Part shown: positions 9,774 through 62,261 of the stretch, piece after piece | How the letters are laid out: each line of letters opens with the position of its first letter | Numbering within the stretch: position 1 is the stretch's first letter | NCBI GenBank assembly: GCA_015075545.1 | Contig: JABTUC010000008.1 | Span: forward strand, 33,783 to 97,782 | Source of the DNA: Ideonella sp. | GTDB taxonomy: Bacteria; Pseudomonadota; Gammaproteobacteria; Burkholderiales; Burkholderiaceae_C | Reading direction: 5' to 3' | Length of the DNA stretch: 64,000 nt | Notes under the pieces: model-generated | Databases searched by the model: none | Told to the model about the DNA's origin: nothing | Seen by the model: the letters and a program-made list of their open reading frames with translations, nothing else | Position numbers and translations under genes: made by a program

Positions 9774-10122
9774 GCGCCGCCGCCTCTCCCTCGAAGACGA
9801 CTCCCCCGGGTCACTGTGGGCCGTTCTCGATCGGCCGGCCTTGCTTCAGTTCAAGTTCAGCCTGTCGGCAGGGCCGCCGCTGCCGGTGCTCACGGTGCAC
9901 GCCGTCGGCGACCCGACGGCGTTCGTCGAGTTGGAGTCCGCGTTTCGCCGGCGCGCGCTGCCGCTTCCTGCCGCAATACCAGCCGGCACCGCTGGCGTCG
10001 CGCGTGCCGCCGCGCTGACGGCGGCGCTGCAGCGAGGGATCAGCGACGCTCAGGCCCGGCGCGGGAGCCGGCGGCGCCCCAGGGCCTGGCGAGCGAGCCG
10101 TGCGCGCTCGGCGACCCGCATC
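9774..10122. other. Intergenic stretch without a convincing gene
   Basis: About 350 bases between the start of the AraC gene and the end of the MaoC-like gene. A plus-strand frame is open through it but shows no recognisable protein and runs on antisense to the MaoC-like gene. The right half holds one copy of a direct repeat described separately. Confidence 0.5.
9982..10060. repeat. Imperfect direct repeat, copy 1 (partner at 10594-10668)
   Basis: The segment starting GCCGGCACCGCTGGCGTCGC matches 10594-10668 closely, by eye roughly 85-90 % with one 4-base gap. Both end in the same GACGCTCAGGCCCGGC. The two copies bracket the MaoC-like gene. They look like members of a dispersed intergenic repeat family. 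Confidence 0.7.
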
Positions 10123-43019: not shown

Positions 43020-43373
43020 TCAGTGTTCGCCCTTGGTGCGCAGCAGCCCGGCCAGCCGGTTGCCCTGCTTCTGCGGGCCGCCGACGGGGAACAGGTCGTG
43101 CAGATAGCGGTTGCTGCCCTGCTCGGCACCCCACAGGCGCGTGAAGTGCTTGATCATCACGCGCACCTGCGCCTGCACACCGTGCTCGTGGTAGTACTGC
43201 CGCAGGTAGCGGATCACCTCCCAGTGCTGCGGCGTCAGCGTCAGGCCTTCCACGCGCGCCTGCGCGCGCACGAAATCCTCCGACCAGTCGGCCAGGTTCT
43301 GCAGGTAGCCCTCGCCGTCGGTGCGCACCTCGCGGTCGCCGACCATCAGGGTTCGTTGCAGCACGGTGGACAT
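43020..43373 (-). CDS. Cysteine-less DsrC/TusE paralogue
   Basis: 117 residues clearly homologous to DsrC of the same locus: GYLQNLADWSEDF, LTPQHWEVIRYLRQYYHEHG, LWGAEQGSNRYLHDLFP. The two catalytic Cys of DsrC are missing: GNRLAG replaces the AC-K-IAG segment and the C-terminal arm ends TKGEH instead of GCV. There is no Cys at all, so it cannot carry sulfur. It may be a regulatory or structural DsrC-like protein, a type described for other sulfur bacteria. It sits between cobA and dsrN. Confidence 0.85.
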   Translation of the reverse strand: MSTVLQRTLMVGDREVRTDGEGYLQNLADWSEDFVRAQARVEGLTLTPQHWEVIRYLRQYYHEHGVQAQVRVMIKHFTRLWGAEQGSNRYLHDLFPVGGPQKQGNRLAGLLRTKGEH

Positions 43374-43386
43374 CTGACGCTCTCCT

Positions 43387-44850
43387 TCAGGCGGCGCGGG
43401 CCAGGGTCGCGCGCGCGGCCGCACGCTCGCGCTCGCGCCGCACGAACTCGACGAAACGCGCCGGCCAGTCGGTGCCGGTGACGCCGCGCAGGTGCGCGTA
43501 CGACGCGAGCAGGTTGTGAATCACCACGCCGTCGTGCGCGCCGTCGATGCCGTGGCCGCGCTCGACGCGGTAGGCGAAGGCGACGCCGGGGTCGAGGTTC
43601 TCGAGGCTCGAATGGTGGAACTCGTGGCCGCGCACGAGCGCGCCGCCACCGGCCCAGGGCATGGCGCCGGTCTCCTGCAGGTGCACGTAGCCGCGGCCCA
43701 CCGGCCGCTCGTGCATCACCGCGTCGCCCGGGATCACGCCGACCATGCGCGCGCTGCGGCCGCGCCAGTGCAGCGAGCGTGCCAGGTACATCAGGCCGCC
43801 GCACTCGGCGTAGGTGGGCAGGCCGGCGCTGACCGCCGCGTGCACGGCCCCGCGCAGCGCTGCGTTGGCCTCCAGCTCGGCCATGCAGGTTTCGGGGAAG
43901 CCGCCGCCGATGAAGAGCCCGTCGATCGCCGGCAGCCGCGCGTCGCGCAGCGTGTCGATCGGCACCAGCTCGGCCCCGGCCGCTTCGAGCGCAGCGAGGT
44001 CGTCGGGGTAGTAGAAGCCGAACGCGCGGTCGCGCGCGATGCCGATGCGCACGGCATGCCGCGCGCTCGCCGCGCTGGCCCCTTGGCGTTCGGTGTCGCG
44101 CGCGACCGGGGCGCGCACGGCCGCAGCGGCGTCGCACGGCAGCGCCGCCACGTCGGGCGGCAACGCGCCGGCCGAGGCGGCCAGCGCGGCCACGCGATCG
44201 AGGTCGACCTGCGCGGCGACGGCGCGGCCGATCTCGCGCACCCTTGCGTCGGCGTCGGCGACCTCGGCGCACGGCATCAGGCCGAGGTGGCGCTCGATCA
44301 TCGCCAGGCGCTCGTCCTCGCCGAGCGCGCCGAGCACCGGCACGTCGGTGTAGTGCTCGATCACCGCGCGCAGCTTGGCTTCGTGGCGCGAGCCGCCGAG
44401 CCGGTTGAGGATCACGCCGCCGATGCGGATGTCGCGCTCGAACGCCTGGTAGCCGAGGATCAGCGGCGCGATGCCGCGCGTCATGCCGCGCGCGTCGAGC
44501 ACCAGCACCACCGGCAGGCCGAGCCGGCGCGCCAGCGCCGCATTGCTGTTGCTGCCATCGAGCGCCAGGCCGTCGTAGAGGCCCTTGTTGCCCTCGACCA
44601 GCGCCAGTTGCGCGCCGCGCAGCGCCTGCACGAACGCGCTCGCCAGCGCGGCGGCGTCCATCAGGTACGGGTCGAGGTTGATGCAAGGCCGCCCGGCGGC
44701 GCGCGCGAGCCACATCGGGTCGATGTAGTCGGGCCCCTTCTTGAACGGCTGCACGCTCTGGCCGCGCGCCACCAGCGCCGCCGCCAGGCCGAGCGTGACG
44801 GTGGTCTTGCCCGAAGACTTGTGCGCGGCCGAGACGAGCAGGCGGTCCAT
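43387..44850 (-). CDS. dsrN: DsrN, sirohaem amidase / cobyrinate a,c-diamide synthase family
   Basis: 487 residues. N-terminal P-loop domain SAAHKSSGKTTVTLGLAAAL (as in CbiA), C-terminal class I glutamine amidotransferase domain with nucleophile Cys in LPTYAECGGLMYLA. In dsr loci DsrN amidates sirohaem. 13 bases separate it from the DsrC-like gene. Confidence 0.92.
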   Translation of the reverse strand: MDRLLVSAAHKSSGKTTVTLGLAAALVARGQSVQPFKKGPDYIDPMWLARAAGRPCINLDPYLMDAAALASAFVQALRGAQLALVEGNKGLYDGLALDGSNSNAALARRLGLPVVLVLDARGMTRGIAPLILGYQAFERDIRIGGVILNRLGGSRHEAKLRAVIEHYTDVPVLGALGEDERLAMIERHLGLMPCAEVADADARVREIGRAVAAQVDLDRVAALAASAGALPPDVAALPCDAAAAVRAPVARDTERQGASAASARHAVRIGIARDRAFGFYYPDDLAALEAAGAELVPIDTLRDARLPAIDGLFIGGGFPETCMAELEANAALRGAVHAAVSAGLPTYAECGGLMYLARSLHWRGRSARMVGVIPGDAVMHERPVGRGYVHLQETGAMPWAGGGALVRGHEFHHSSLENLDPGVAFAYRVERGHGIDGAHDGVVIHNLLASYAHLRGVTGTDWPARFVEFVRRERERAAARATLARAA

Positions 44851-52644: not shown

Positions 52645-53004
52645 TCAGTCTCCGAAGGTCACGAGCCGATCGGCCTTGATGCCCGAGTCGACCAGTTGCC
52701 CGAGGCCGGCGATGCGGAACCCCGGCGCCAGCAGCTCGTCCTTGATGCCGCGGCGCAGCGCGGCGGCGACGCACACCACCAGGTCGACCCCGTGCTCGGC
52801 GTTCAGCGCCGACCAGCGGTTGACGATGTGGCGGTCGTCCTGCGGCGGCTCGGTGTAGCGGCTCGCGTTGTAGACCCCGTCGTGATAGAAGAACACGCGC
52901 TGCACCTGGTGCCCGCGCCGGATCGCCGCGGCCGCGAACTGGTACGCGCTGTCGCTCGCCTGGTGCGTGTAGGGGCCTTCGCTGACGAGCAAGCCGAACT
53001 TCAT
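52645..53004 (-). CDS. dsrE: DsrE, catalytic sulfurtransferase subunit
   Basis: 119 residues. Cys78 in DLVVCVAAALRRGI matches the active Cys of DsrE, and EGPYTHQASDSAYQFA plus FFYHDGV are conserved. Start at MKFGLLV; an ATG three codons upstream is possible. Accepts persulfide from TusA-type donors. Confidence 0.94.
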   Translation of the reverse strand: MKFGLLVSEGPYTHQASDSAYQFAAAAIRRGHQVQRVFFYHDGVYNASRYTEPPQDDRHIVNRWSALNAEHGVDLVVCVAAALRRGIKDELLAPGFRIAGLGQLVDSGIKADRLVTFGD

Positions 53005-53060
53005 TTCAGTCATCCATGGTGCCAAACAGCACTCGCGCCGCATGAATCCGTCGCAACCGA

Positions 53061-53141
53061 GCGGCCGCCGCGGATCCGGCTTTGCCGGGCCGCTGGCGGC
53101 GCCCCCCTGGGGGGGAGGCGCCGAAGGCGCTTCGGGGGGGA
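53061..53141. repeat. Dispersed GC-rich hairpin repeat between dsrB and dsrE
   Basis: Same family as 47218-47297: GGATCCGGCTTTGCCGG core, then GGCGCCCCCCTGGGGGGGAG and GAAGGCGCTTCGGGGGG. Located immediately after the dsrB stop in the 143-base dsrB-dsrE gap. It can form strong hairpins that may stabilise or trim the mRNA. Confidence 0.8.
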
Positions 53142-53147
53142 TTCACT

Positions 53148-54215
53148 TCAGAAGCGGATGTGTGCCGACGCGTTGAGGCTCGAGCGCGAGCCGCGCCAGT
53201 CGTCGATCAGGTACTTGGTGAACGGCAGGTCGCACTTCTCGAAGAAGCGCGGCCAGCCGATGCGCTCGACCCAGTCGGACAGGCGCTCCCACGGGCGCGC
53301 ATCGGCCTTGTAGGTGTAGAGGATCTTCTTGACGATCGCCGACACCTCGGGCCAGCGCGGCGGGTTGTTGGGCAGCCCGGCGGCCACCATCTTCATGAAG
53401 GTGGGCTTGCCGCGCGCGTTGGAGTTCTTGCCGCCGACCCAGATCGCGAACTTGGAGTGCTCGGGGTCGTTGATCTGCATCGGCGGGCACGGCGCGTAGC
53501 AGGCGCCGCAGCAGATGCACTTCTTCTCGTCGACCTCGAGGCTCGGCTTGCCGTTGACCAGCGCCGGGCGGATCGCCGCCACCGGGCAGCGCGCCACCAC
53601 CGCCGGGCGCTCGCAGATGTTGGCCACCAGATCGTGGTTGATCTTCGGCGGCTTGGTGTGCTGCATCACGATCGCCAGGTCGGCCTGGCCGCCGCAGTTG
53701 ATCTCGCAGCACGAGGTCGACAGATGCACGCGGTTGGGCATCTCCTCCTTGATGAACTCGGTGTACAGCTCGTCCATCAGCGCCTTGGCGGCGCCGGAGG
53801 CGTCGGTGCCCGGGATGTCGCAGTGCAGCCAGCCCTGCGTGTGCGCGATCATCGACACCGAGTTGCCGGTGCCGCCCACCGGGAAGCCGTTGCTGGTGAG
53901 CGCCTCGATCAGCGGCGCGACCTTGTTCTGGTCGGCCACCATGAACTCGATGTTCGAGCGGATCGTGAAGCGCACGTGGCCGTCGGCGTACGTGTCGGCG
54001 ATGTCGCATAGCTTGCGGATGGTGTGCACGTCCATCTGCCGCTGCGTGCCGGCGCGCACCGTCCACACCTCGTCGCCCGAGTGCGACACGTGGTGCAGCA
54101 CGCCGGGGCGCGGGCGGTCGTGGTACCTCCAGTTGCCGTAGTTCTTCAGCAGCGTGGGGTGCATGAACGGCTTGGGGTCGGGGCAGCCGCTCTCGATCGG
54201 GGTGCGATGGGCCAT
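53148..54215 (-). CDS. dsrB: Dissimilatory sulfite reductase (reverse type) beta subunit
   Basis: 355 residues. Sirohaem-[4Fe-4S] region with STSCCEINCGGQADL, then ferredoxin motif CICCGACYAPCPPM. Catalyses, with DsrA, oxidation of DsrC-bound sulfur to sulfite. Start at 54215 (MAHRTPIES) after a GAGGAC ribosome binding site. Confidence 0.97.
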   Translation of the reverse strand: MAHRTPIESGCPDPKPFMHPTLLKNYGNWRYHDRPRPGVLHHVSHSGDEVWTVRAGTQRQMDVHTIRKLCDIADTYADGHVRFTIRSNIEFMVADQNKVAPLIEALTSNGFPVGGTGNSVSMIAHTQGWLHCDIPGTDASGAAKALMDELYTEFIKEEMPNRVHLSTSCCEINCGGQADLAIVMQHTKPPKINHDLVANICERPAVVARCPVAAIRPALVNGKPSLEVDEKKCICCGACYAPCPPMQINDPEHSKFAIWVGGKNSNARGKPTFMKMVAAGLPNNPPRWPEVSAIVKKILYTYKADARPWERLSDWVERIGWPRFFEKCDLPFTKYLIDDWRGSRSSLNASAHIRF

Positions 54216-54241
54216 GAAGTCCTCGTCTATCGGTTTGTCAC

Positions 54242-54328
54242 GCGGACAGTCGCCGCCGGGCCGCCCCAAGGCGACTGAGCCCCCTCGGGGGGCAGCGACG
54301 CGGCGCAGCCGCTAGCGTGGGGGTCCAC
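54242..54328. repeat. Comamonadaceae-type intergenic repeat between dsrA and dsrB
   Basis: Contains GAGCCCCCTCGGGGGGCAGC and GCGTGGGGGTCC, an intergenic repeat pattern common in Burkholderiales genomes. It fills almost the whole dsrA-dsrB gap of 114 bases. Confidence 0.75.
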
Positions 54329-54329
54329 A

Positions 54330-55625
54330 TCAGGCTTCCGCCTTCTTGGCATTGATGCGCGCGACCTCGTCGTCCCAGCCGTCGGTGCGCACGTAGGGGT
54401 TGGTGCGTGGCGTGGTCACCATGTTGGCGTCGACCTCGACGCCGATGCCCTCGAGGAAGTTGACCAGCCCGATGCGCTCGATCATCTCGCCGGTGCGCTC
54501 GTGCTCGAGCGCGTTCTCGGCGAAGAAGTCGATCACCTTCTGGCCCAGCTCGACCAGCGCGGCGTAGTCCTCGTCGGTCTTCAGCGGCATGAACGGGATC
54601 ACCACCGTGCCCATCAGGTCGCCGATCTTCAGCGTGCGCTTGCCGCCGATCAGGATGGTGGCGCCGGTGTCGGTGCCGTGCGCGAGCGCGCCGGTCATCA
54701 CGTTGATGCAGTGCATGCAGCGCACGCAGTTGCCGTTGTCGATCTCGAGGGCCTGGGTGTCGTTGACCTTGACGCTGGAGATCTTGTCGCCCTGTGCGAC
54801 GTCGCGCACCTCCTTGAGCATGATGGCCTTGGTCGGGCAGCGCGCGACCACGTCGTTGACCAGCTCGTTCATGCCGTGCTTGGCGAACCACTTGCGCGCC
54901 AGCGTCTCGTCGGTTCGCATGTTGTCGCGCCAGGTGCCGATCACCGCCATGTCGGAGCGCTGGATCGAGTTCATGCAGTCGTTCGGGCAGCCGCTGAACT
55001 TGAACTTGAACTTGTACGGCAGCGCCGGGCGGTGGATGTCGCCGACGAAGGTGTTGATCACCTGCCGGTGCGCGCGCTGCTCGTCGTAGCAGCTCTGCTC
55101 GCAGCGCGCGGCGCCGACGCAGCTCATCGAGGTGCGCACCGCGGGGCCCGCGCCGCCGAGGTCGAAGCCCAGCTCGTTGAGCTCGTCGAACGCGGCCTGC
55201 ACCTTGTCGCTCTTGGCGCCCTGGAACATGATGTCGCCGCTTTGCCCGTGGAACGCGATCAGGCCCGAGCCGTGCTTCTCCCAGATGTCGCACATCTTGC
55301 GCAGCACCTGGGTGTCGTAGTGCATGCCCGCCGGCGGCTGCACGCGCAGCGTGTGGAACTCGGCGGCGTCGGGGAACACCGGCTTGTCGTCCTCGCCCTT
55401 CAGCTCGGTGAAGCGCGGGATCACCCCGCCGCCGTAGCCGAACACGCCGATCGTGCCGCCCTTCCAGTAGCCCTTGCGCGTGCGGTACGAGGTCTCGAGC
55501 TGGCCGAGCAGGTCGACCATGTAGTCCTTGTCCTTCGCCAGGTGCTTCAGGCCGGTGACGAAGCTCGGCCAGGGGCCGCCCTCGAGCTGGTCGAGGATCG
55601 GCGTGGGGTGCGGTTTCTTGGCCAT
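54330..55625 (-). CDS. dsrA: Dissimilatory sulfite reductase (reverse type) alpha subunit
   Basis: 431 residues. Sirohaem-binding Cys set CVGAARCEQSC and SGCPNDCM, and ferredoxin motif NCVRCMHCINVM. Start at MAKKPHP with an AGGAG ribosome binding site. First gene of the 13-gene dsr operon; presence of dsrL, dsrEFH and apr/sat marks the oxidative direction. Confidence 0.97.
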   Translation of the reverse strand: MAKKPHPTPILDQLEGGPWPSFVTGLKHLAKDKDYMVDLLGQLETSYRTRKGYWKGGTIGVFGYGGGVIPRFTELKGEDDKPVFPDAAEFHTLRVQPPAGMHYDTQVLRKMCDIWEKHGSGLIAFHGQSGDIMFQGAKSDKVQAAFDELNELGFDLGGAGPAVRTSMSCVGAARCEQSCYDEQRAHRQVINTFVGDIHRPALPYKFKFKFSGCPNDCMNSIQRSDMAVIGTWRDNMRTDETLARKWFAKHGMNELVNDVVARCPTKAIMLKEVRDVAQGDKISSVKVNDTQALEIDNGNCVRCMHCINVMTGALAHGTDTGATILIGGKRTLKIGDLMGTVVIPFMPLKTDEDYAALVELGQKVIDFFAENALEHERTGEMIERIGLVNFLEGIGVEVDANMVTTPRTNPYVRTDGWDDEVARINAKKAEA

Positions 55626-55745
55626 CGGTGGTCTCCTGTGGTCGCCGCTGCTTCGAGGCGCCGGCCCGCCGGCGCCGCCACGAGCGCCGGCCGTGCGGAC
55701 GGCGCGCGCGCGTTGGCCGCCACGATAGGGCCCTGGCGCGTCCAA

Positions 55746-55793
55746 GATATACCCCGGAAGGGTTATCCGCCGCTCACCCGTACCGGGTATGGA
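55746..55793. promoter_or_regulatory. Two inverted repeats in the divergent dsrA / 55.8-kb operon promoter region
   Basis: Imperfect ATACCCCGGAAGGGTTAT (55748-55765) and perfect ACCCG-TAC-CGGGT (55780-55792). They lie in the 215-base gap between dsrA and the plus-strand operon, where a shared regulator could act on both. Confidence 0.5.
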
Positions 55794-55840
55794 CGCCGGC
55801 TGGCGCGCCCGCGCTCAATGCGGCTTTCGCAGGGCCTGGC

Positions 55841-56056
55841 ATGACGCGCCTGACACCGCTCGCGCAACTGCGCGCGCCGCTCGGCGGCCAGCGCATCGAA
55901 CTGCAGCAGGTCGACCACGAGGCCGGCGGCATGAGCCTGCTGCGCACGCGCATCCGCGAAGGCCAGCGCTTCACCGTGTTCGACATCGATCCGCAGACCG
56001 CGCTCGAATGGGGCCGCGCGCTGCTGCGCTGGGCCGATGCCCAGCAGACGCGCTGA
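55841..56056 (+). CDS. Small conserved-looking protein, first gene of the divergent operon
   Basis: 71 residues (MTRLTPLAQLRAPLGGQRIE...). A beta-rich first half (GQRIELQQVDHEAGGMSLLRTRIREGQRFTVFDIDP) and a terminal helix (TALEWGRALLRWADAQ). No motif for a known enzyme. Its stop lies 4 bases before the Cas6-like start, suggesting one transcript. Confidence 0.65.
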   Translation: MTRLTPLAQLRAPLGGQRIELQQVDHEAGGMSLLRTRIREGQRFTVFDIDPQTALEWGRALLRWADAQQTR

Positions 56057-56060
56057 GGCG

Positions 56061-56678
56061 ATGGACGCCGCTGCCGCGATGGTCGACGTGAAGTTCTCGC
56101 TGGCGGGCGACGCGCTGCCGCGCGACCACGGCCAGCTCGTGGCGCAGGCGCTGGCGCAGCACCTGCCGTGGCTCGACGACGACCCCGCGTTCGGCGTGCA
56201 CCGCGTCAAGCTGGTCGCCGGCAGCGGCGAGCCGGCGCTGCTGTCGCGGCACTCGCGCCTCGCGCTGCGCGTGGCGCGCACGCGCGCCGCCGCGGTGGCC
56301 GCGCTGGCCGGCGCCACGCTCGACATCGGCGGCTGCCGCGTGCAACTGGGCGCGGCGGTGGTGCGCGAGCTGCTCGCGCACGCCACCTTGTACGCGCCGC
56401 TGGTGGTGGCTCCGGCCGACGGCGACTGCGACGAGGCCACCTTCCTCGGCTGCGTGCAGGCCGAACTCGACGCGCTGGGCGTGCGCGCCCGCCTCGTCTG
56501 CGGACGGCGCGGTGCGCTGTGCCACTGCGGCGCGCAGCTCGCCGGCTTCAGCCTGATGCTCGACGGCCTGTCGGCCGCCGATTCGCTGCACGTGCAAGAG
56601 CACGGCATCGGCGGCCACCGGCGCCTGGGCTGCGGCGTGTTCGTGCCCCACCGCTCGGCCGCGGCCGTGGCGGCCTGA
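56061..56678 (+). CDS. Cas6-like (Cmx6-type) RAMP-fold protein without a CRISPR locus
   Basis: 205 residues resembling the Cas6/Cmx6 family. An N-terminal DVKFSLAGDALPRDHG block with His23 (a possible catalytic His), PWLDDDPAFGVHRVKL, SRLALRVARTRA, and C-terminal SLMLDGLSAADSLHVQEHG leading into GIGGHRRLGCGVF (182-194), an exact G-h-G-x5-G-h-G glycine-rich loop of RAMP proteins. Cas6 cleaves CRISPR repeat RNA, but no array or other cas gene is in this window. An internal ATG at 56079 is an alternative start. RNA cleavage or binding is inferred only from the fold. Confidence 0.78.
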   Translation: MDAAAAMVDVKFSLAGDALPRDHGQLVAQALAQHLPWLDDDPAFGVHRVKLVAGSGEPALLSRHSRLALRVARTRAAAVAALAGATLDIGGCRVQLGAAVVRELLAHATLYAPLVVAPADGDCDEATFLGCVQAELDALGVRARLVCGRRGALCHCGAQLAGFSLMLDGLSAADSLHVQEHGIGGHRRLGCGVFVPHRSAAAVAA

Positions 56679-56727
56679 AGTCGTGCGCTTCGCCGACGGC
56701 CACCGATTCCGCTAGAGGCCAGTCACC

Positions 56728-57345
56728 GTGCGCGTCAAGAGCCACTGGTTCCGCAGCGAGGCGCCCAAGAGCGCCGAGCAGCAGGCCAGCGCGGCGGCGT
56801 TCATCGTCTGGCGCACGGCGCACCACATGCTGCAGCAGATGCGCAAGGCCGGCTTCCAGATCGACCCCGGCGTCGCCTACTTCGAGTTCCAGCGCGAGGC
56901 GATGGCGTTCCTGATCGCGGTGGTCGACCGCATCGCCTACGCACGATTCGACGCCGACACCCGCGCGGCGTTCATCCAGGCGCTGGTGCACCACGGCGCG
57001 CGCACCTTCGAAGACAACGCCGCCGAGCTGCTCGGGCCGCGCCCCGATGGCGCGTCGCACGGCGACGCCTTCATCGACCTCGTCAACGAGCTGAGCGACC
57101 AATATGCCGATTTCGGCGCCGAGCGGCGAGCGGGCGACGCGTCGTTCACGCCCGACTTCGCGTTCGTGCGCTACTTCGCCAGCCGGCTCGCCGATACGTT
57201 GCCGCAACCCGACCAGCGCTGGGCGCTCGACCAGGTGATCGCCAGCGAAGCGCCGGCTGCGGTGGCGACGATGCAAAGCGCGCTCGGCAACCTGCTGTCG
57301 CCGCGGCCGCGCAGCGCGCGGCGCACGACCCTGAGCGGCGACTGA
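56728..57345 (+). CDS. Hypothetical helical protein in the Cas6-like operon
   Basis: 205 residues starting with GTG. Almost wholly helical (FIVWRTAHHMLQQMRKAGFQ, FLIAVVDRIAYARFD), with no recognised domain or Cys. Located between the RAMP and dioxygenase genes on the same strand, 49 bases after the former. Function unknown. Confidence 0.72.
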   Translation: MRVKSHWFRSEAPKSAEQQASAAAFIVWRTAHHMLQQMRKAGFQIDPGVAYFEFQREAMAFLIAVVDRIAYARFDADTRAAFIQALVHHGARTFEDNAAELLGPRPDGASHGDAFIDLVNELSDQYADFGAERRAGDASFTPDFAFVRYFASRLADTLPQPDQRWALDQVIASEAPAAVATMQSALGNLLSPRPRSARRTTLSGD

Positions 57346-57361
57346 TGCAAGGCCGCGAGCG

Positions 57362-58324
57362 ATGAACCCACCGCTCACCGCCGCCGCCTGCGCGTCGCCC
57401 GCGCCGGGCCAGCAGACCAGCCCTGAGCGCCACGCCGTGCCCGATCTCGCCGATGCGCAGGCCTATGCCGCGTGGCGCGAGCGCAAGCTGGCCGGGCGCG
57501 CACGCAGCGCCGCCGAGCTGCAGGTCGACATCGGCGACCCGCGCGCGCTGACCCCCGACGAGCGCCAGGCGCTGCTGCAGCGCTGCGCGCGCTGGAACAT
57601 GGCGATCTACCGCTGCCGCGACGCGGTGGCCGACAAGCCGGCGGTGCTCGCGCTGGCGCGTCAGCTCGGCCTGCGCCGCCTCGACGGCAACTGGCTGGCC
57701 GACGACGACGGCCTGTCGAGCATCGCGGTGCGCGACGGCGAGCCGCGCGGCGAGTACATCCCGTACACCACGCGGCCGATCAAGTGGCACACCGACGGCT
57801 ACTACCACCCCGACGGCCGGCGCATCCACGGCATGCTGCTGCACTGCGTGCGTGCGGCCGCCGCCGGCGGCGTCAACGCGCTGCTCGACCACGAGCTGGC
57901 GTACATCGCGCTGCGCGACGCCTCGCCGCGCTGGCTGGGCGCGCTGATGGCGAGCGACGCGATGACGATCCCGGCGCGCACCGACGAAGGCGGCGTCGCG
58001 CGCGCGGCGCAGGCCGGGCCGGTGTTCTCGATCGGCGCGGGCGGCGCGCTGCACATGCGCTACACCGCGCGCACGCGCAGCATCGTCTGGAAGGACGACG
58101 CCGCCACGCGCGAGGCGGTGGCGTTCCTCGAGCGCTTTCTGGCCGACAACCCGTTCACGCTGCGGCTGCGGCTCGAGCCCGGCATGGGCCTGGTGGCCAA
58201 CAACGTGCTGCACGACCGCAGCGGCTTCGCCGACGACCCCGCCGCGCCGCGCCTGCTGTGGCGCGCACGCTACCTCGACCGCGTCGACGCACCCGCCCCG
58301 GAGGCCGCATGGCGCAGTGGGTGA
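57362..58324 (+). CDS. TauD/TfdA-family Fe(II)/2-oxoglutarate dioxygenase
   Basis: 320 residues. Iron-binding HxD in KWHTDGYYHP, distal His in NNVLHDRSGF and 2-oxoglutarate Arg region in LLWRARYLDR, all in order. The family hydroxylates taurine, sulfonates, alkyl sulfates and many other substrates. The actual substrate is unknown. It lies 16 bases after the helical protein and overlaps the next gene by 16 bases. Confidence 0.88.
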   Translation: MNPPLTAAACASPAPGQQTSPERHAVPDLADAQAYAAWRERKLAGRARSAAELQVDIGDPRALTPDERQALLQRCARWNMAIYRCRDAVADKPAVLALARQLGLRRLDGNWLADDDGLSSIAVRDGEPRGEYIPYTTRPIKWHTDGYYHPDGRRIHGMLLHCVRAAAAGGVNALLDHELAYIALRDASPRWLGALMASDAMTIPARTDEGGVARAAQAGPVFSIGAGGALHMRYTARTRSIVWKDDAATREAVAFLERFLADNPFTLRLRLEPGMGLVANNVLHDRSGFADDPAAPRLLWRARYLDRVDAPAPEAAWRSG

Positions 58325-59793
58325 CGATCTGGCGCGCCGCGCAACTCGTCGGCGTGCCGCGCGGCGTGCTGCAGCAGCGCGTCCGATCCGGCGAGATCGA
58401 GCTGAACGACGGCCTGGTGTCGACCGACGCGCTGCTGCGCCTGTACCCCACGGCCGAGATCGAGCAATCGGGGATGTTCGAGCGCGTGATGCAGATCCGC
58501 GACGACGCCTTCGCGCGGCGTGTGCGCGAGCGGCTGCTGCCGAGCCAGGAGGTGCTGGCGCAGCGGCTGTTCCGCCAGGGCCAGGAGCTGGCCGACGTGC
58601 AGCGCCACCTGCAGCGCTACCACGCGCTGGTGCTCGAGCTGCGCGAGGCGCTGCGCCGCGCGCGGGCCGACGATGCCGACGACACCCGGCTGCTCGCATT
58701 GCAACGCCAGCTGAACGACGGGCTGGCGCGGGCGCTGGCCACCGAACCGGTCGATGTGCTGAACGTGATGGACGACGTGCTGAAGATGGTGTCGGCGCAG
58801 GTGACGCTGCGTCCGAGCGGACACCAGTTCGCGGTGGAAGGCCACGACACGCTGCTGCAGGCGGGCCTGCGCGCGGGGCTGAAGCTCAACTACGGCTGCG
58901 GCAACGGCACCTGCGGCATGTGCAAGGTGCGCGTGATCTCGGGGCAGGTGGTCAAGTGCATGCCGTTCGACTATCCGATGTCGGAGATCGAGAAGAGCCA
59001 GGGCTACGCGCTGATGTGCGCCAACACCGCCGCCAGCGGCGAGCTGACGCTCGAGACGCTGGAGGCCGGCGGCCCGGCCGACATCCCCGAGCAGCAGATC
59101 GTGACCGCCGCGCGCGCTGTGCGCGAGCTGGCGCCGCGCACGCGGCTGCTGCACCTGCAGACGCCGCGCACCCACCGGCTGCGCTTTCTGGCCGGCCAGG
59201 CGGTGACGCTCGGCCACGCCGGCACGCTGCAAAGCGGCGGCGAAGACATCAGCCTGACGCTGCCGATCGCCAGCTGCCCGTGCGACGACCGCAACCTGCA
59301 CTTCTACATCGACGGCGACGCCGACGACGCGTTCTCCAGGCGGGTGTTCGACGGCACCATCAAGCCGGGCGACCCCATCAACCTGCGCGGGCCGATGGGC
59401 GAGTTCGTGCTCGGCGACGGCCAGCGCCCGCTGGTGTTCGCCGCCTGCGACCTCGGCTTCGCGCCGATCAAGAGCCTGATCGAGCACGCGCTGTCGCTCG
59501 ACAGCGCGCCGTCGCTGTCGCTGTTCTGGCTGGCCACGCGCGCCGACGGCCACTTCCAGGCCAACCAGTGCCGTGCCTGGTCCGAGGCGCTCGACCCGTT
59601 CGAGTACGCGCTGTTCAACCATGCCGACGCCGCCGCCGGCGCACAGCAGGTGTTCGAGGCGATCCGCGCCGACCAGTTCGACGTCGACTGCGACTTCTAC
59701 CTCGCCGGCCCGCCCGGCTTCATCGGCCCGCTGGGTGACGCGCTGGCCGACGCCGGCGTGCCGGCGCAGCAGATCTCGCGCGAGGTCGTGTGA
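58309..59793 (+). CDS. HTH / coiled-coil / [2Fe-2S] ferredoxin / FAD-NAD(P) reductase fusion
   Basis: 494 residues. N-terminal MerR-like helix-turn-helix (WVTIWRAAQLVGVPRGVLQQRVRSGEIEL), then a charged coiled-coil (about 70-145), a plant-type ferredoxin (CGNGTCGMCKVRV, later LMCANT), and an FNR-type reductase (GQAVTLGHAG, DPINLRGPMGEFVL, CDLGFAPIKSLIEHA). A redox enzyme with its own DNA- or partner-binding head. Ends in an overlap with the S24-like gene. Confidence 0.87.
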   Translation: MAQWVTIWRAAQLVGVPRGVLQQRVRSGEIELNDGLVSTDALLRLYPTAEIEQSGMFERVMQIRDDAFARRVRERLLPSQEVLAQRLFRQGQELADVQRHLQRYHALVLELREALRRARADDADDTRLLALQRQLNDGLARALATEPVDVLNVMDDVLKMVSAQVTLRPSGHQFAVEGHDTLLQAGLRAGLKLNYGCGNGTCGMCKVRVISGQVVKCMPFDYPMSEIEKSQGYALMCANTAASGELTLETLEAGGPADIPEQQIVTAARAVRELAPRTRLLHLQTPRTHRLRFLAGQAVTLGHAGTLQSGGEDISLTLPIASCPCDDRNLHFYIDGDADDAFSRRVFDGTIKPGDPINLRGPMGEFVLGDGQRPLVFAACDLGFAPIKSLIEHALSLDSAPSLSLFWLATRADGHFQANQCRAWSEALDPFEYALFNHADAAAGAQQVFEAIRADQFDVDCDFYLAGPPGFIGPLGDALADAGVPAQQISREVV

Positions 59794-60134
59794 GCGAGAA
59801 CACCTCGAGCGCCATACCAACCGGCGGCGGCTGCGAAAGCGGCGAGCCGTTCGCGCTGCGCGTGCTGGGCCACAGCATGCTGCCGGAGTTCGCGCACGGC
59901 GACGTCATCGTCATCGAGCCCGACGGCGCGCTGCACGACGGCAGCTTCGTGCTCGCCTACGTCGGCGACGAATGGCTGTTCAGGCAGCTCGCCCGCGACG
60001 CCGACGGCTGGCGGCTGCGCGCGCTGAATGCCGCCTACCCCGAGCAGCGCCTGAGCGACCTGGCCGCGGTGCGCGGCGTCGTGATCCAGAAGGCGGTGCC
60101 GGGCCGGCGCCGCCTGAGCAAGCGCTACGTCTGA
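59790..60134 (+). CDS. S24/LexA-like peptidase-fold protein, probably inactive
   Basis: 114 residues starting with GTG inside the preceding stop. LexA-type core VLGHSMLPEFAHGDVIVIEPD with the nucleophile Ser, then WLFRQLARDADGWRLRALN, where Arg replaces the catalytic Lys usually found as V-K-R. No DNA-binding domain. It might be a non-peptidase adaptor or a regulator partner for the preceding HTH protein. Confidence 0.8.
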   Translation: MSENTSSAIPTGGGCESGEPFALRVLGHSMLPEFAHGDVIVIEPDGALHDGSFVLAYVGDEWLFRQLARDADGWRLRALNAAYPEQRLSDLAAVRGVVIQKAVPGRRRLSKRYV

Positions 60135-60203
60135 CGGCCGCCCGCTCGGTGCAGGCTCCGTGCGGTTAGCATCAGCGCGGCCCGCAAAGGGCGCGTTGGC
60201 GAG

Positions 60204-60587
60204 GTGCGCGTGTCGTACTTGAACGATCCCCGGGTGTTCTTCGCGGCCGAGCGCACGCTGCTGGCCTGGCAGCGCACGGCCATCGCGCTGATCGGACTGG
60301 GATTCGTGGTCGAACGATTCGGCCTCTTCATGCGGCTGGCCACCGGCGCGAGCCTGCCGGCGATGCAAGGCCACATGTCGCTGCTGTTCGGCGTCGCGTT
60401 CCTGCTGCTCGGTGCCGCGGTGGCCACGGTCGCCGCGTGGCAGTTCGGCCGCTTCCTGCACGAGCTGTCGGGGCCCGAGATCCCGCGCGGGCATGCCGTC
60501 TGGATGGGTCCGGCGATCAACTATGCGCTCGCGCTGACGGCGCTGGGGATGGTGGTGTGGCTGGTCACCGCCGCGCTGGCGGCCTGA
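60204..60587 (+). CDS. DUF202-family small membrane protein
   Basis: 127 residues. Starts NDPRVFFAAERTLLAWQRTAIALIGLGFVVERFG, the DUF202/YidH signature, followed by two further hydrophobic segments. Cytoplasmic membrane, function unknown. Start is GTG; another GTG two codons later is possible. Overlaps the amidase frame. Confidence 0.85.
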   Translation: MRVSYLNDPRVFFAAERTLLAWQRTAIALIGLGFVVERFGLFMRLATGASLPAMQGHMSLLFGVAFLLLGAAVATVAAWQFGRFLHELSGPEIPRGHAVWMGPAINYALALTALGMVVWLVTAALAA

Positions 60588-61336
60588 GCCGGCTGCGCGC
60601 CGCAGCACGGCTTGCGACGACGCTGCTGGTCGCCTGTGCGCTGGCCGCCTGCTCGGCATGGCCGCTGGGCACCTCGATCCCGACGCGCTGGCAGCCGTCG
60701 GCCAACTTCGACCAGCGCCGGCCGACGCTGGTGGTCATCCACTACACCGGCAGCGAAACCGCCGCCGACGCGCTGCGCACCCTCACCACCGCAACGCCGG
60801 CGGTCAGCGCACATTACCTGATCGTGCGCGACGGCAGCATCGTCCAGTTGGTCGACGAGCGCGCGCGGGCGTGGCACGCGGGCGAGTCGCGCTGGGGCGC
60901 GTCGTTCGACGTCAACTCCGACTCGATCGGCATCGAGCTCGACAACGACGGCCGCACGCCCTACCCGCAGGCCCAGATCGACGCGCTGCTGGCGTTGCTG
61001 GCGGATCTGCAGCGGCGCTATCGGCTGCCGGCGGCGGCGTTCGTCGGCCACGCCGACGTCGCGCCATGGCGCAAGGTCGACCCCGGCCCGCTGTTCCCGT
61101 GGCGCACGCTCGCGGCCAGCGGCTTCGGCCAGTGGTGCGACCCGCCCTACCCCGAGCCGCCGCCAGATTTCGACTTCGCGCTCGGGCTGCGCGCGATCGG
61201 CTACGACACGCGGCAACTGGACAGCACGTGGGCCGCCTTCCGGCTGCACTACGCGCCCGACGAAACGGCGGCCGAGCCCAGCGAGCGCGAGCGCGCGCTG
61301 GTGTACTGCCTGAGCGGGCTCGCCAGCTCGCCATAG
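60557..61336 (+). CDS. N-acetylmuramoyl-L-alanine amidase lipoprotein (AmiD-like)
   Basis: 259 residues if GTG at 60557 is the start. Lipobox LAAC after TTLLVACALAACSAW. Amidase_2 domain with zinc ligands in VVIHYTGSE, WHAGES and GHADVAPWRKVDPGP. Cleaves peptidoglycan peptide from sugar in outer-membrane-anchored form. Start is inferred; no strong ribosome binding site. Confidence 0.85.
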   Translation: MAGHRRAGGLSRLRAAARLATTLLVACALAACSAWPLGTSIPTRWQPSANFDQRRPTLVVIHYTGSETAADALRTLTTATPAVSAHYLIVRDGSIVQLVDERARAWHAGESRWGASFDVNSDSIGIELDNDGRTPYPQAQIDALLALLADLQRRYRLPAAAFVGHADVAPWRKVDPGPLFPWRTLAASGFGQWCDPPYPEPPPDFDFALGLRAIGYDTRQLDSTWAAFRLHYAPDETAAEPSERERALVYCLSGLASSP

Positions 61337-61460
61337 GCGGCGCGGGCGCGGTGGCTTCGATCGAGCCCCCGCGCGCTGCCCAATCTCGCACCCGTGCCGG
61401 CGGCCGCGGCGCCGGATCGGCGCGGCCGGTCGCCGCGCCCGCGCAGGCGATACTGCGCCG

Positions 61461-62261
61461 ATGTTCGCGGCCTGGATGCTCGGCTACTTCGTCACCGGCG
61501 CGCTGGTGGGTTTTCTGGCGGGGCTGCTCGGCATCGGCGGCGGCATGTCGCTGGTGCCGATCCTGGCGGCGATGTTCACCGCCCAGCACCTTGCGCCCGA
61601 CCACACTGTGCACCTGGCGCTGGGCACCGGCATGGCGTCGATCATGTTCACCTCGAGCGCCAGCGTGCGCGCGCACCACGCGCTCGGCGGCGTCGACTGG
61701 TCACTGGTGCGCCGCCTCGGGCCGGGCATGGTGGGCGGCACGCTGCTGGCCACCGCGCTGTCGGGCTGGGTGCCGCAACGCGCGCTCGCACTGGCCTTCG
61801 CGGCGATCGTCTACGCGGGGGCGACGCAGATCATGCTCGGCCGCAAGCCGAGCGCTGGCCGCGGCCTGCCGGGCACAGGCGCGTTGCTCGCGATCGGGTT
61901 GCTGATCGGCGTGGTGTGCGGGCTGGTGTCGGCCGGCGGCGCCTTCATGACCGTGCCGTTCATGCTCTATTGCGGCGTCGCGATGACCAGGGCCATCGGC
62001 ACCGGCGCCGCGCTCGGCGTGCCGGTGGCGGTGGTGGGCACGATCGGCTACGTGAGCAGCGGCCTGCAGGTCGCCTCGCTGCCGCCGTGGGCGCTCGGCT
62101 TCGTGCACGGCCCGGCGCTGCTGGGCATCGTGGCCGGCAGCATGCTCACCGCGCGCTTCGGCGCGCGCACCGCGCACCGAATGCCGGTGGTGGTGCTGCG
62201 CCGCATCTTCGCCGTGCTGCTGTACGCGCTGGCGACGAAGATGCTGTGGACGTATCTGTAG
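61461..62261 (+). CDS. TauE/SafE-family exporter, second copy
   Basis: 266 residues with about eight membrane segments; repeats GFLAGLLGIGGGMSLVPILAAMF and GLVSAGGAFMTVPFMLYCGV are the family signature. A sulfite or sulfonate exporter by family; location near the dsr locus favours sulfite. Confidence 0.88.
   Translation: MFAAWMLGYFVTGALVGFLAGLLGIGGGMSLVPILAAMFTAQHLAPDHTVHLALGTGMASIMFTSSASVRAHHALGGVDWSLVRRLGPGMVGGTLLATALSGWVPQRALALAFAAIVYAGATQIMLGRKPSAGRGLPGTGALLAIGLLIGVVCGLVSAGGAFMTVPFMLYCGVAMTRAIGTGAALGVPVAVVGTIGYVSSGLQVASLPPWALGFVHGPALLGIVAGSMLTARFGARTAHRMPVVVLRRIFAVLLYALATKMLWTYL

Follow-up and report, generated by a model that had tools for sequence, protein, structure and literature searches.

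The window analysed here is a stretch of 64,000 nucleotides from Ideonella sp. (contig JABTUC010000008.1, positions 33,783 to 97,782). It carries a dsr gene cluster of the reverse dissimilatory sulfite reductase (rDsr) sulfur-oxidation system and, facing it, a gene for a Cas6-like protein, which is the subject of this work. Six genes, all on the plus strand between positions 55841 and 60134, run divergently from dsrA (start at position 55625, minus strand), with which they have a promoter region in common. The Cas6-like gene is the second of the six (Table 1). This layout had been correctly described in the first-pass annotation of the window, including the overlapping start and stop codons, two of which are real (16 nt between the TauD and reductase genes, 4 nt between the reductase and S24 genes). 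The helix-turn-helix part that it had assigned to the ferredoxin reductase was not recovered, as no helix-turn-helix family matched the reductase in Pfam. According to the available text of PMC7596348, the TauD-type gene of the divergent operon is the gene named dsrQ.

Table 1. Genes and promoter elements of the dsrA-facing operon in the window
Feature	Position	Strand	Basis or remark
dsrB	53151-54215	-	followed by the remaining dsr cluster on the same strand
dsrA (dissimilatory sulfite reductase alpha)	54330-55625	-	TIGR02064 509.6 bits, cut-off 392.85; divergent neighbour
Promoter region common to dsrA and the DUF6967-Cas6 operon	55626-55840		gap between the two divergent gene starts
Operator-like dyad 1, ACCCCGGAAGGGT	55751-55763		ACCC-N(2-8)-GGGT dyad search
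Operator-like dyad 2, ACCCGTACCGGGT	55776-55788		ACCC-N(2-8)-GGGT dyad search
DUF6967 small protein, 71 aa	55841-56056	+	Pfam PF22295 104 bits, cut-off 27
Cas6/Cmx6-family protein, 205 aa	56061-56678	+	PF09559 187.4 bits; TIGR02807 154.4 bits
Six-helix protein, 205 aa	56728-57345	+	no Pfam match; model pLDDT 92.4
TauD-family Fe/2-oxoglutarate dioxygenase (= dsrQ)	57362-58324	+	PF02668 77 bits
2Fe-2S ferredoxin / FAD-NAD reductase, N-terminal extension	58309-59793	+	PF00111 51 bits; BenC-like reductase profiles below cut-off
S24/LexA-type peptidase domain protein, 114 aa	59790-60134	+	PF00717 64.8 bits

The open reading frame 56061-56678 (+) encodes a genuine Cas6/Cmx6-family protein. Residues 6-198 of the 205 matched both PF09559 (cut-off 26.7 bits) and TIGR02807 (cut-off 98.85 bits) well over the thresholds, and six PADLOC Cas6 models matched the protein as well. 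The glycine loop GIGGHRRLGCGVF, typical of repeat-associated mysterious proteins (RAMP), and the N-terminal PRDHG block, both pointed out in the first-pass annotation, were present and aligned with those of Cas6/Cmx6 proteins linked to clustered regularly interspaced short palindromic repeats (CRISPR). The alignment of carriers of the gene held 44 of the 46 carriers found in the survey described below, and 35 of these were used for the structure alignment. Among solved structures, the profile of these 35 dsr-linked relatives gave a single meaningful match, to Cas6 from the Cascade of a type I-B CRISPR-associated transposon (CAST) (8fcj, E 4e-33). A family AlphaFold2 model was built with G182 as the first sequence, a relative with the Cas6-like gene in the same place and 37% identical to the window protein. 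This model, with a predicted local distance difference test (pLDDT) score of 94.4, showed a template modelling (TM) score of 0.90 to 8fcj_B, and its 29 PDB matches at E<=0.001 were entries of Cas6, Cse3, RAMP or Cascade. The predicted fold is the double ferredoxin or RNA recognition motif (RRM) fold of the Cas6 family. A misannotated generic RRM fold was ruled out by the curated profile scores together with the structure.

Searches for PF09559, DUF6967, Cas1 and dsrA were run on the same 250 genomes drawn from the order. PF09559 was found in 46 genomes from 26 genera and many families, and all 46 also carried dsrA. This corresponds to 46 of the 51 dsrA genomes (49 that passed the cut-off, to which G014 and G161 were added on the basis of dsrA fragments) versus 0 of the 199 genomes without dsrA (Fisher p 5e-45). 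The Cas6-like gene was divergent from dsrA in every carrier, and the gap between the two matches measured 416-833 nt in 44 carriers, 2082 nt in one and 4969 nt in another. DUF6967 was present in 44 of the 250 genomes, every one a dsrA genome. A set of 80 named loci was also examined, the best 80 of at least 588 relatives from a scan of 84,980 species; it leans towards query-like sequences and overlaps in organisms with the order draw (for example Sulfuricella sp. T08). In 79 of these 80 loci dsrA adjoined the Cas6-like gene, the 80th (L110) lying at a contig end. The organisms of these best 80 include Sulfuricella, Sulfurimicrobium, Sulfuriferula, Thiobacillus, Tepidiphilus, Hydrogenophilales and Gallionellaceae. 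The consistent linkage to dsrAB across genera is that of an rDsr accessory gene. The dsr link put forward at first was therefore upheld by the neighbourhood survey, and homologues scattered without such a link were not the pattern found, with the caveat of the cyanobacterial plasmid homologues that lie in CRISPR loci. The distances between Cas6-like proteins correlated with those between DsrA proteins (r 0.65, a value reached in none of 2000 permutations; 34 loci), a co-divergence that shared descent alone could explain. In six genomes (G062, G088, G167, G182, G201 and G243) dsrA is present in two full copies, only one of which has the single PF09559 gene beside it.

The operon members were counted in 45 order loci (all carriers except the window) and in the 80 named loci; misses in these counts include divergent members beyond the single query and contigs ending early. 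A DsrC-like gene lay downstream of the Cas6-like gene in 45/45 order loci and 76/80 named loci. DUF6967 was found in 40/45 and 74/80, the helical protein in 42/45 and 75/80, and TauD in 35/45 and 56/80, respectively. Rhodanese was present in 26/45 order and 71/80 named loci, and tandem TusA in 15/45 and 4/80. The reductase was found in one order locus and seven named loci, and a same-strand S24 gene in none of either set; both occur in the close relative G483. The conserved operon consists of DUF6967, the Cas6-like gene, the DsrC-like gene, rhodanese or tandem TusA, the helical protein and TauD (DsrQ). The S24 and reductase genes of the operon initially drawn in the window are not conserved members in most relatives. 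In G483 the order is DUF6967, Cas6-like, DsrC-like, helical, TauD, reductase and S24, which indicates that the window holds the same operon minus the DsrC-like gene. Both the DsrC-like and the rhodanese/TusA genes, conserved in most relatives, are missing at this spot in the window.

The DsrC-like proteins (e.g., L042 9716-10045) had a penultimate cysteine in 0 of 111 translations, and the redox cysteine pair was absent. The C-terminus GGY was observed in 109 of the 111, nine of which keep some cysteine in the last 30 residues; the two other translations, L060 and L112, are without a DsrC-like ending. The helical protein belongs to no Pfam family, and its model gave no PDB match at E<=0.001. 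Alignment of 38 sequences of this family revealed the invariant residues E57, D67, R68, R79, Y126, D162, W165 and D168. The helical protein was not found in 47 dsrA genomes outside the order, in a search without positive control. In the Cas6-less dsr locus of G132 (L062, about position 9787), four regularly spaced short hairpin repeats are located between DUF6967 and dsrA. They resemble repetitive extragenic palindromic elements.

The divergent promoter regions showed a recurrent dyad, ACCC-N(2-8)-GGGT, present in 70 of 113 regions (near-duplicate regions kept) as compared to a mean of 4.1 and a maximum of 9 in 50 mononucleotide shuffles. It occurs twice in the window. A site with a four-base spacer was found in 51 of 103 distinct regions, mostly as CTACCC-N4-GGGTAG or close to it. 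In 21 of these 51 sites the right arm was GGGTTAT (CTACCC-N4-GGGTTAT), a change which breaks the outer RNA pairs and has no matching change on the left. For this reason we interpret the dyad as a probable operator in DNA rather than a hairpin in RNA, and it was set aside as an RNA target of Cas6. Similar dyads are widespread in this order. In windowed folding of the first lineage group, the strongest signal corresponded to the same dyad, with z values derived from only 30 column shuffles, and was given no weight.

The distribution of CRISPR genes was different from that of dsrA. Cas1 was present in 95 of the 250 order genomes, 15/46 carriers versus 80/204 others, i.e., no association (p 0.5). 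Ten of the 46 carriers possessed cas3 over the cut-off, all ten within the 15 Cas1-positive carriers. Among 27 Cas1-positive genomes searched, 15 of them carriers, Cas6e was over the cut-off in six and Cas6f in one. A separate Cas6e was found in 5 of the 15 Cas1-positive carriers, on a contig other than that of the dsr-linked gene. In the genome of the window itself (85% complete, not scanned base by base for arrays) nothing matched Cas1, and no cas3 exceeded the cut-off. No CRISPR-like array was detected in the window, as first reported, nor in the dsr-linked Cas6 loci among the 189 sequences scanned. Four array-like segments were seen in these 189 sequences, three beside CRISPR-linked genes (L159, L160 and L165) and one in a Cas6-less dsr locus. 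The cas genes linked to Cas6 in type I-MYXAN were not seen beside the window gene. The neighbours identified there belong to the dsr cluster or are other sulfur genes, the family-by-family scan having covered part of the window.

Outside the order the gene was not encountered together with dsrA. In 398 genomes of the phylum PF09559 was found in five, all of this order and all with dsrA. DsrA was over the cut-off in 52 of the 398, of which 47 belong to other orders, with PF09559 in 0/47. DUF6967 was present in 5 of these 47 without Cas6, and a TauD-type gene adjoined it in all five loci. The pair was divergent from dsrA in the four loci containing dsrA, the fifth contig being without it. The gene following the pair was a siroheme synthase in the three loci tested at that position; the gene tested further on in L184 was not. 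The simplest reading is that TauD and DUF6967 form a wider rDsr accessory module which the Cas6-like gene joined in this order; Cas6, missing from the module elsewhere, looks like a later recruit. On cyanobacterial plasmids eight homologues were found and five were read, four of them located among type I-MYXAN cas genes. The fifth context also does not resemble a CRISPR locus. On the Gloeobacter morelensis plasmid pGMOR1 (L156 5974-6765) the Cas6/Cmx6 protein is annotated near one gene of the phosphoadenosine phosphosulfate reductase family and one cupin gene, and the gene table, which is incomplete, lists no cas gene for about 6 kb around it.

We compared 105 distinct dsr-linked sequences with five non-dsr homologues (the four cyanobacterial type I-MYXAN proteins and the one without cas genes). 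The loop was conserved in both groups, its glycines G182, G184, G190 and G192 being kept in 104-105 of the 105, including the window protein. Similarly, R70 (105/105) and R187 (102/105) were conserved in the non-dsr homologues too. Other positions distinguished the dsr-linked proteins. E125 was present in 105/105 versus 0/5, and R64 in 103/105 versus 1/5. Position 197, beside the glycine loop, was H in 99 and Y in 6, the histidine being absent in 5/5 non-dsr homologues, and position 198 was K in 103 and otherwise R, as in the window, with K/R in 0/5. P196 was common to four of the five non-dsr homologues.

From these observations the dsr-linked protein is almost certainly a non-CRISPR, dsr-dedicated Cas6. 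It is very improbable that it serves instead as a CRISPR RNA (crRNA)-processing Cas6 acting in trans for arrays elsewhere in the genome, as its family name would imply. The Cas1-positive carriers fit such a role to some extent, as 10 of the 15 had no Cas6e or Cas6f over the cut-off (with a weak Cas6e match in G020; other Cas6 types were not searched), and a side role in crRNA processing is possible within these ten. The other 31 carriers are without Cas1, five carriers already possess Cas6e, and the association in the order is perfect with dsrA instead, so that the Cas1, cas3 and Cas6e distributions make this role unlikely. A CRISPR system elsewhere in the genome of the window, which would have told against the first-pass proposal, was not observed within the limits given above. 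That proposal was the recruitment of a Cas6 for the cleavage of a cellular RNA. Its first elements stood up well, namely the Cas6 itself, its linkage to dsr and the fact that no connection to CRISPR was visible; cleavage did not fare as well, with the presumed catalytic histidine of the PRDHG block replaced in 28 of 105 sequences and no common RNA structure. We lean towards an RNA-binding regulatory or processing role of the domesticated protein, because the glycine loop and the invariant basic residues are conserved. As judged from these residues, RNA binding is the safer assumption and cleavage is possible; repeated replacement of the histidine makes cleavage a less secure guess. The divergent placement on a shared promoter region, together with neighbours from the sulfur relay, suggests a part in controlling or maturing the rDsr system. 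The evolutionary side of this reading is the firmest: in all likelihood a Cas6/Cmx6-family RAMP protein left CRISPR and, in this order, was domesticated as an enduring accessory of the rDsr sulfur-oxidation locus. We favour the view that it still binds one particular RNA, presumably transcribed from the dsr region or acting on it. Along with the products of the neighbouring operon genes, it would in this way tune expression or mRNA processing of the dsr genes.

Several observations weigh against this interpretation. Five of the 51 dsrA genomes (G083, G122, G132, G145 and G217) were without PF09559, an absence less certain in G122, where the contig ends near dsrA, and in G145, where one dsrA copy is a fragment; the gene is therefore not strictly needed for rDsr. 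The catalytic histidine of an active Cas6 lies at the PRDHG position (PMC3150331, in the text available), and among the 105 sequences this position was H in 77 (including the window), N in 16, Y in 11 and D in 1, with at least eight changes by parsimony from an ancestral histidine. As the CAST Cas6 has Asn at this position and catalytic residues vary among Cas6 enzymes, according to the accessible part of PMC6452270, loss of the histidine does not prove loss of cleavage. The median isoelectric point (pI) was 6.6 (69/105 below 7) versus 9.3-9.6 in the five non-dsr homologues. As a proof of lost RNA binding this charge is weakened by the same-genome comparisons with Cas6e, in which the pI contrast ranged from none to large in five pairs, the translations of the controls L165 and L166 being partial or in a doubtful frame. 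At position 64 the window protein itself has H. When the divergent promoter region was folded from alignments of five lineage groups, no RNA structure recurred in all of them, and Rfam gave sub-threshold matches only in window positions 53000-61500, so that no RNA substrate was found there. A role without RNA is also possible, as the operon partners are sulfur-relay genes. The Cas6 fold would then act as a scaffold or partner of DsrC-like, TusA or rhodanese proteins, or in DsrAB maturation. The constant DsrC-like neighbour with no penultimate cysteine, the frequent rhodanese or TusA genes, the repeated histidine losses and the often neutral or acidic charge favour it, as does the absence of the DsrC-like gene from the Cas6-less loci of G083 and G217. 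The pair is not obligate, as G132 has the DsrC-like gene without Cas6, and Cas6 occurs without an adjoining DsrC-like gene in the window and in 4/80 named loci (L114, L115, L116 and L128). Moreover, few positions are as conserved as the glycine-rich loop and the basic residues that usually contact RNA, which makes a specific RNA contact more likely, on sequence grounds, than a protein-only role. We regard the latter as fairly unlikely. We also consider it rather unlikely that the protein is an active endoribonuclease which cuts a hairpin in dsr-linked transcripts; the catalytic residues of such an enzyme would be H23, in most species, or else H197 and K/R198 near the C-terminus. The histidine kept in most sequences, the second one beside the glycine loop, the variability of Cas6 catalytic residues and the short hairpin-capable dyad agree with such an enzyme, whereas the operator look of the dyad and the missing common RNA structure do not. 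A more far-reaching form of the RNA-binding hypothesis is the conversion of a CRISPR endoribonuclease into a dedicated sequence-specific riboregulator of dissimilatory sulfur oxidation, which would recognise and cut or cap dsr-region RNA and couple rDsr output to the state of the sulfur relay via the DsrC-like partner devoid of redox cysteines. This form is unlikely; if true, a Cas protein alone, without guide RNA, would function in core energy metabolism across a bacterial order.

The nearest known systems differ in context. The type I-MYXAN Cas6/Cmx6 belongs to the same family by curated score and has the same N-terminal DH block and GxGxxRxxGCGxF loop. Its cyanobacterial plasmid loci carry cas3, cmx8 or cas8a1, cas7/DevR, cas5 and in some cases cas1 and cas2, whereas the dsr-linked protein lies in a dsr operon with no cas genes or array seen, is often acidic, and does not universally possess the presumed catalytic histidine. 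The closest solved structure, the type I-B CAST Cascade Cas6 (PDB 8fcj/8fcu), is a subunit of an RNA-guided transposition complex, and no such partner genes were seen at the dsr locus. The divergent tauD-type gene dsrQ of rDsr clusters (Lenk et al. 2012, via PMC7596348) also occurs in this operon; the dsrQ description in the available text of PMC7596348 makes no mention of a Cas6-family gene, DUF6967 or the helical protein. In the Myxococcus dev operon, a CRISPR locus taken over for sporulation according to the accessible portion of PMC8730458, a cas-derived module likewise functions outside defence; dev is a CRISPR-Cas operon, in contrast to the single Cas protein in a metabolic operon here. 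No Cas6-dsr link was found in the open-licence PMC papers searched, most subscription papers being beyond the search; in the parts available of PMC5944118, PMC5728499, PMC10952691 and PMC8889020, Cas6 and dsr are named in separate contexts.

The presence of a Cas6-family protein in a sulfur-oxidation operon, with no CRISPR seen and the same arrangement in most dsr-bearing relatives, suggests that energy metabolism has co-opted a defence protein. It points to a clear-cut exaptation of a lone Cas protein for metabolism. Every PF09559 carrier in the 250-genome draw has the gene beside dsrA despite its CRISPR name, which points to a systematic misnaming. An uncharacterised, widely conserved operon (DUF6967, Cas6-like, DsrC-like and helical protein) adjoins dsrAB in Thiobacillus, Sulfuricella and relatives, and as these include cultivated species its role is open to direct testing. 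At the far end of the dsr cluster, the window contains a further DsrC-like gene (43020-43424, minus strand), whose product is without C-terminal cysteines and which adjoins a uroporphyrinogen-III methyltransferase gene.

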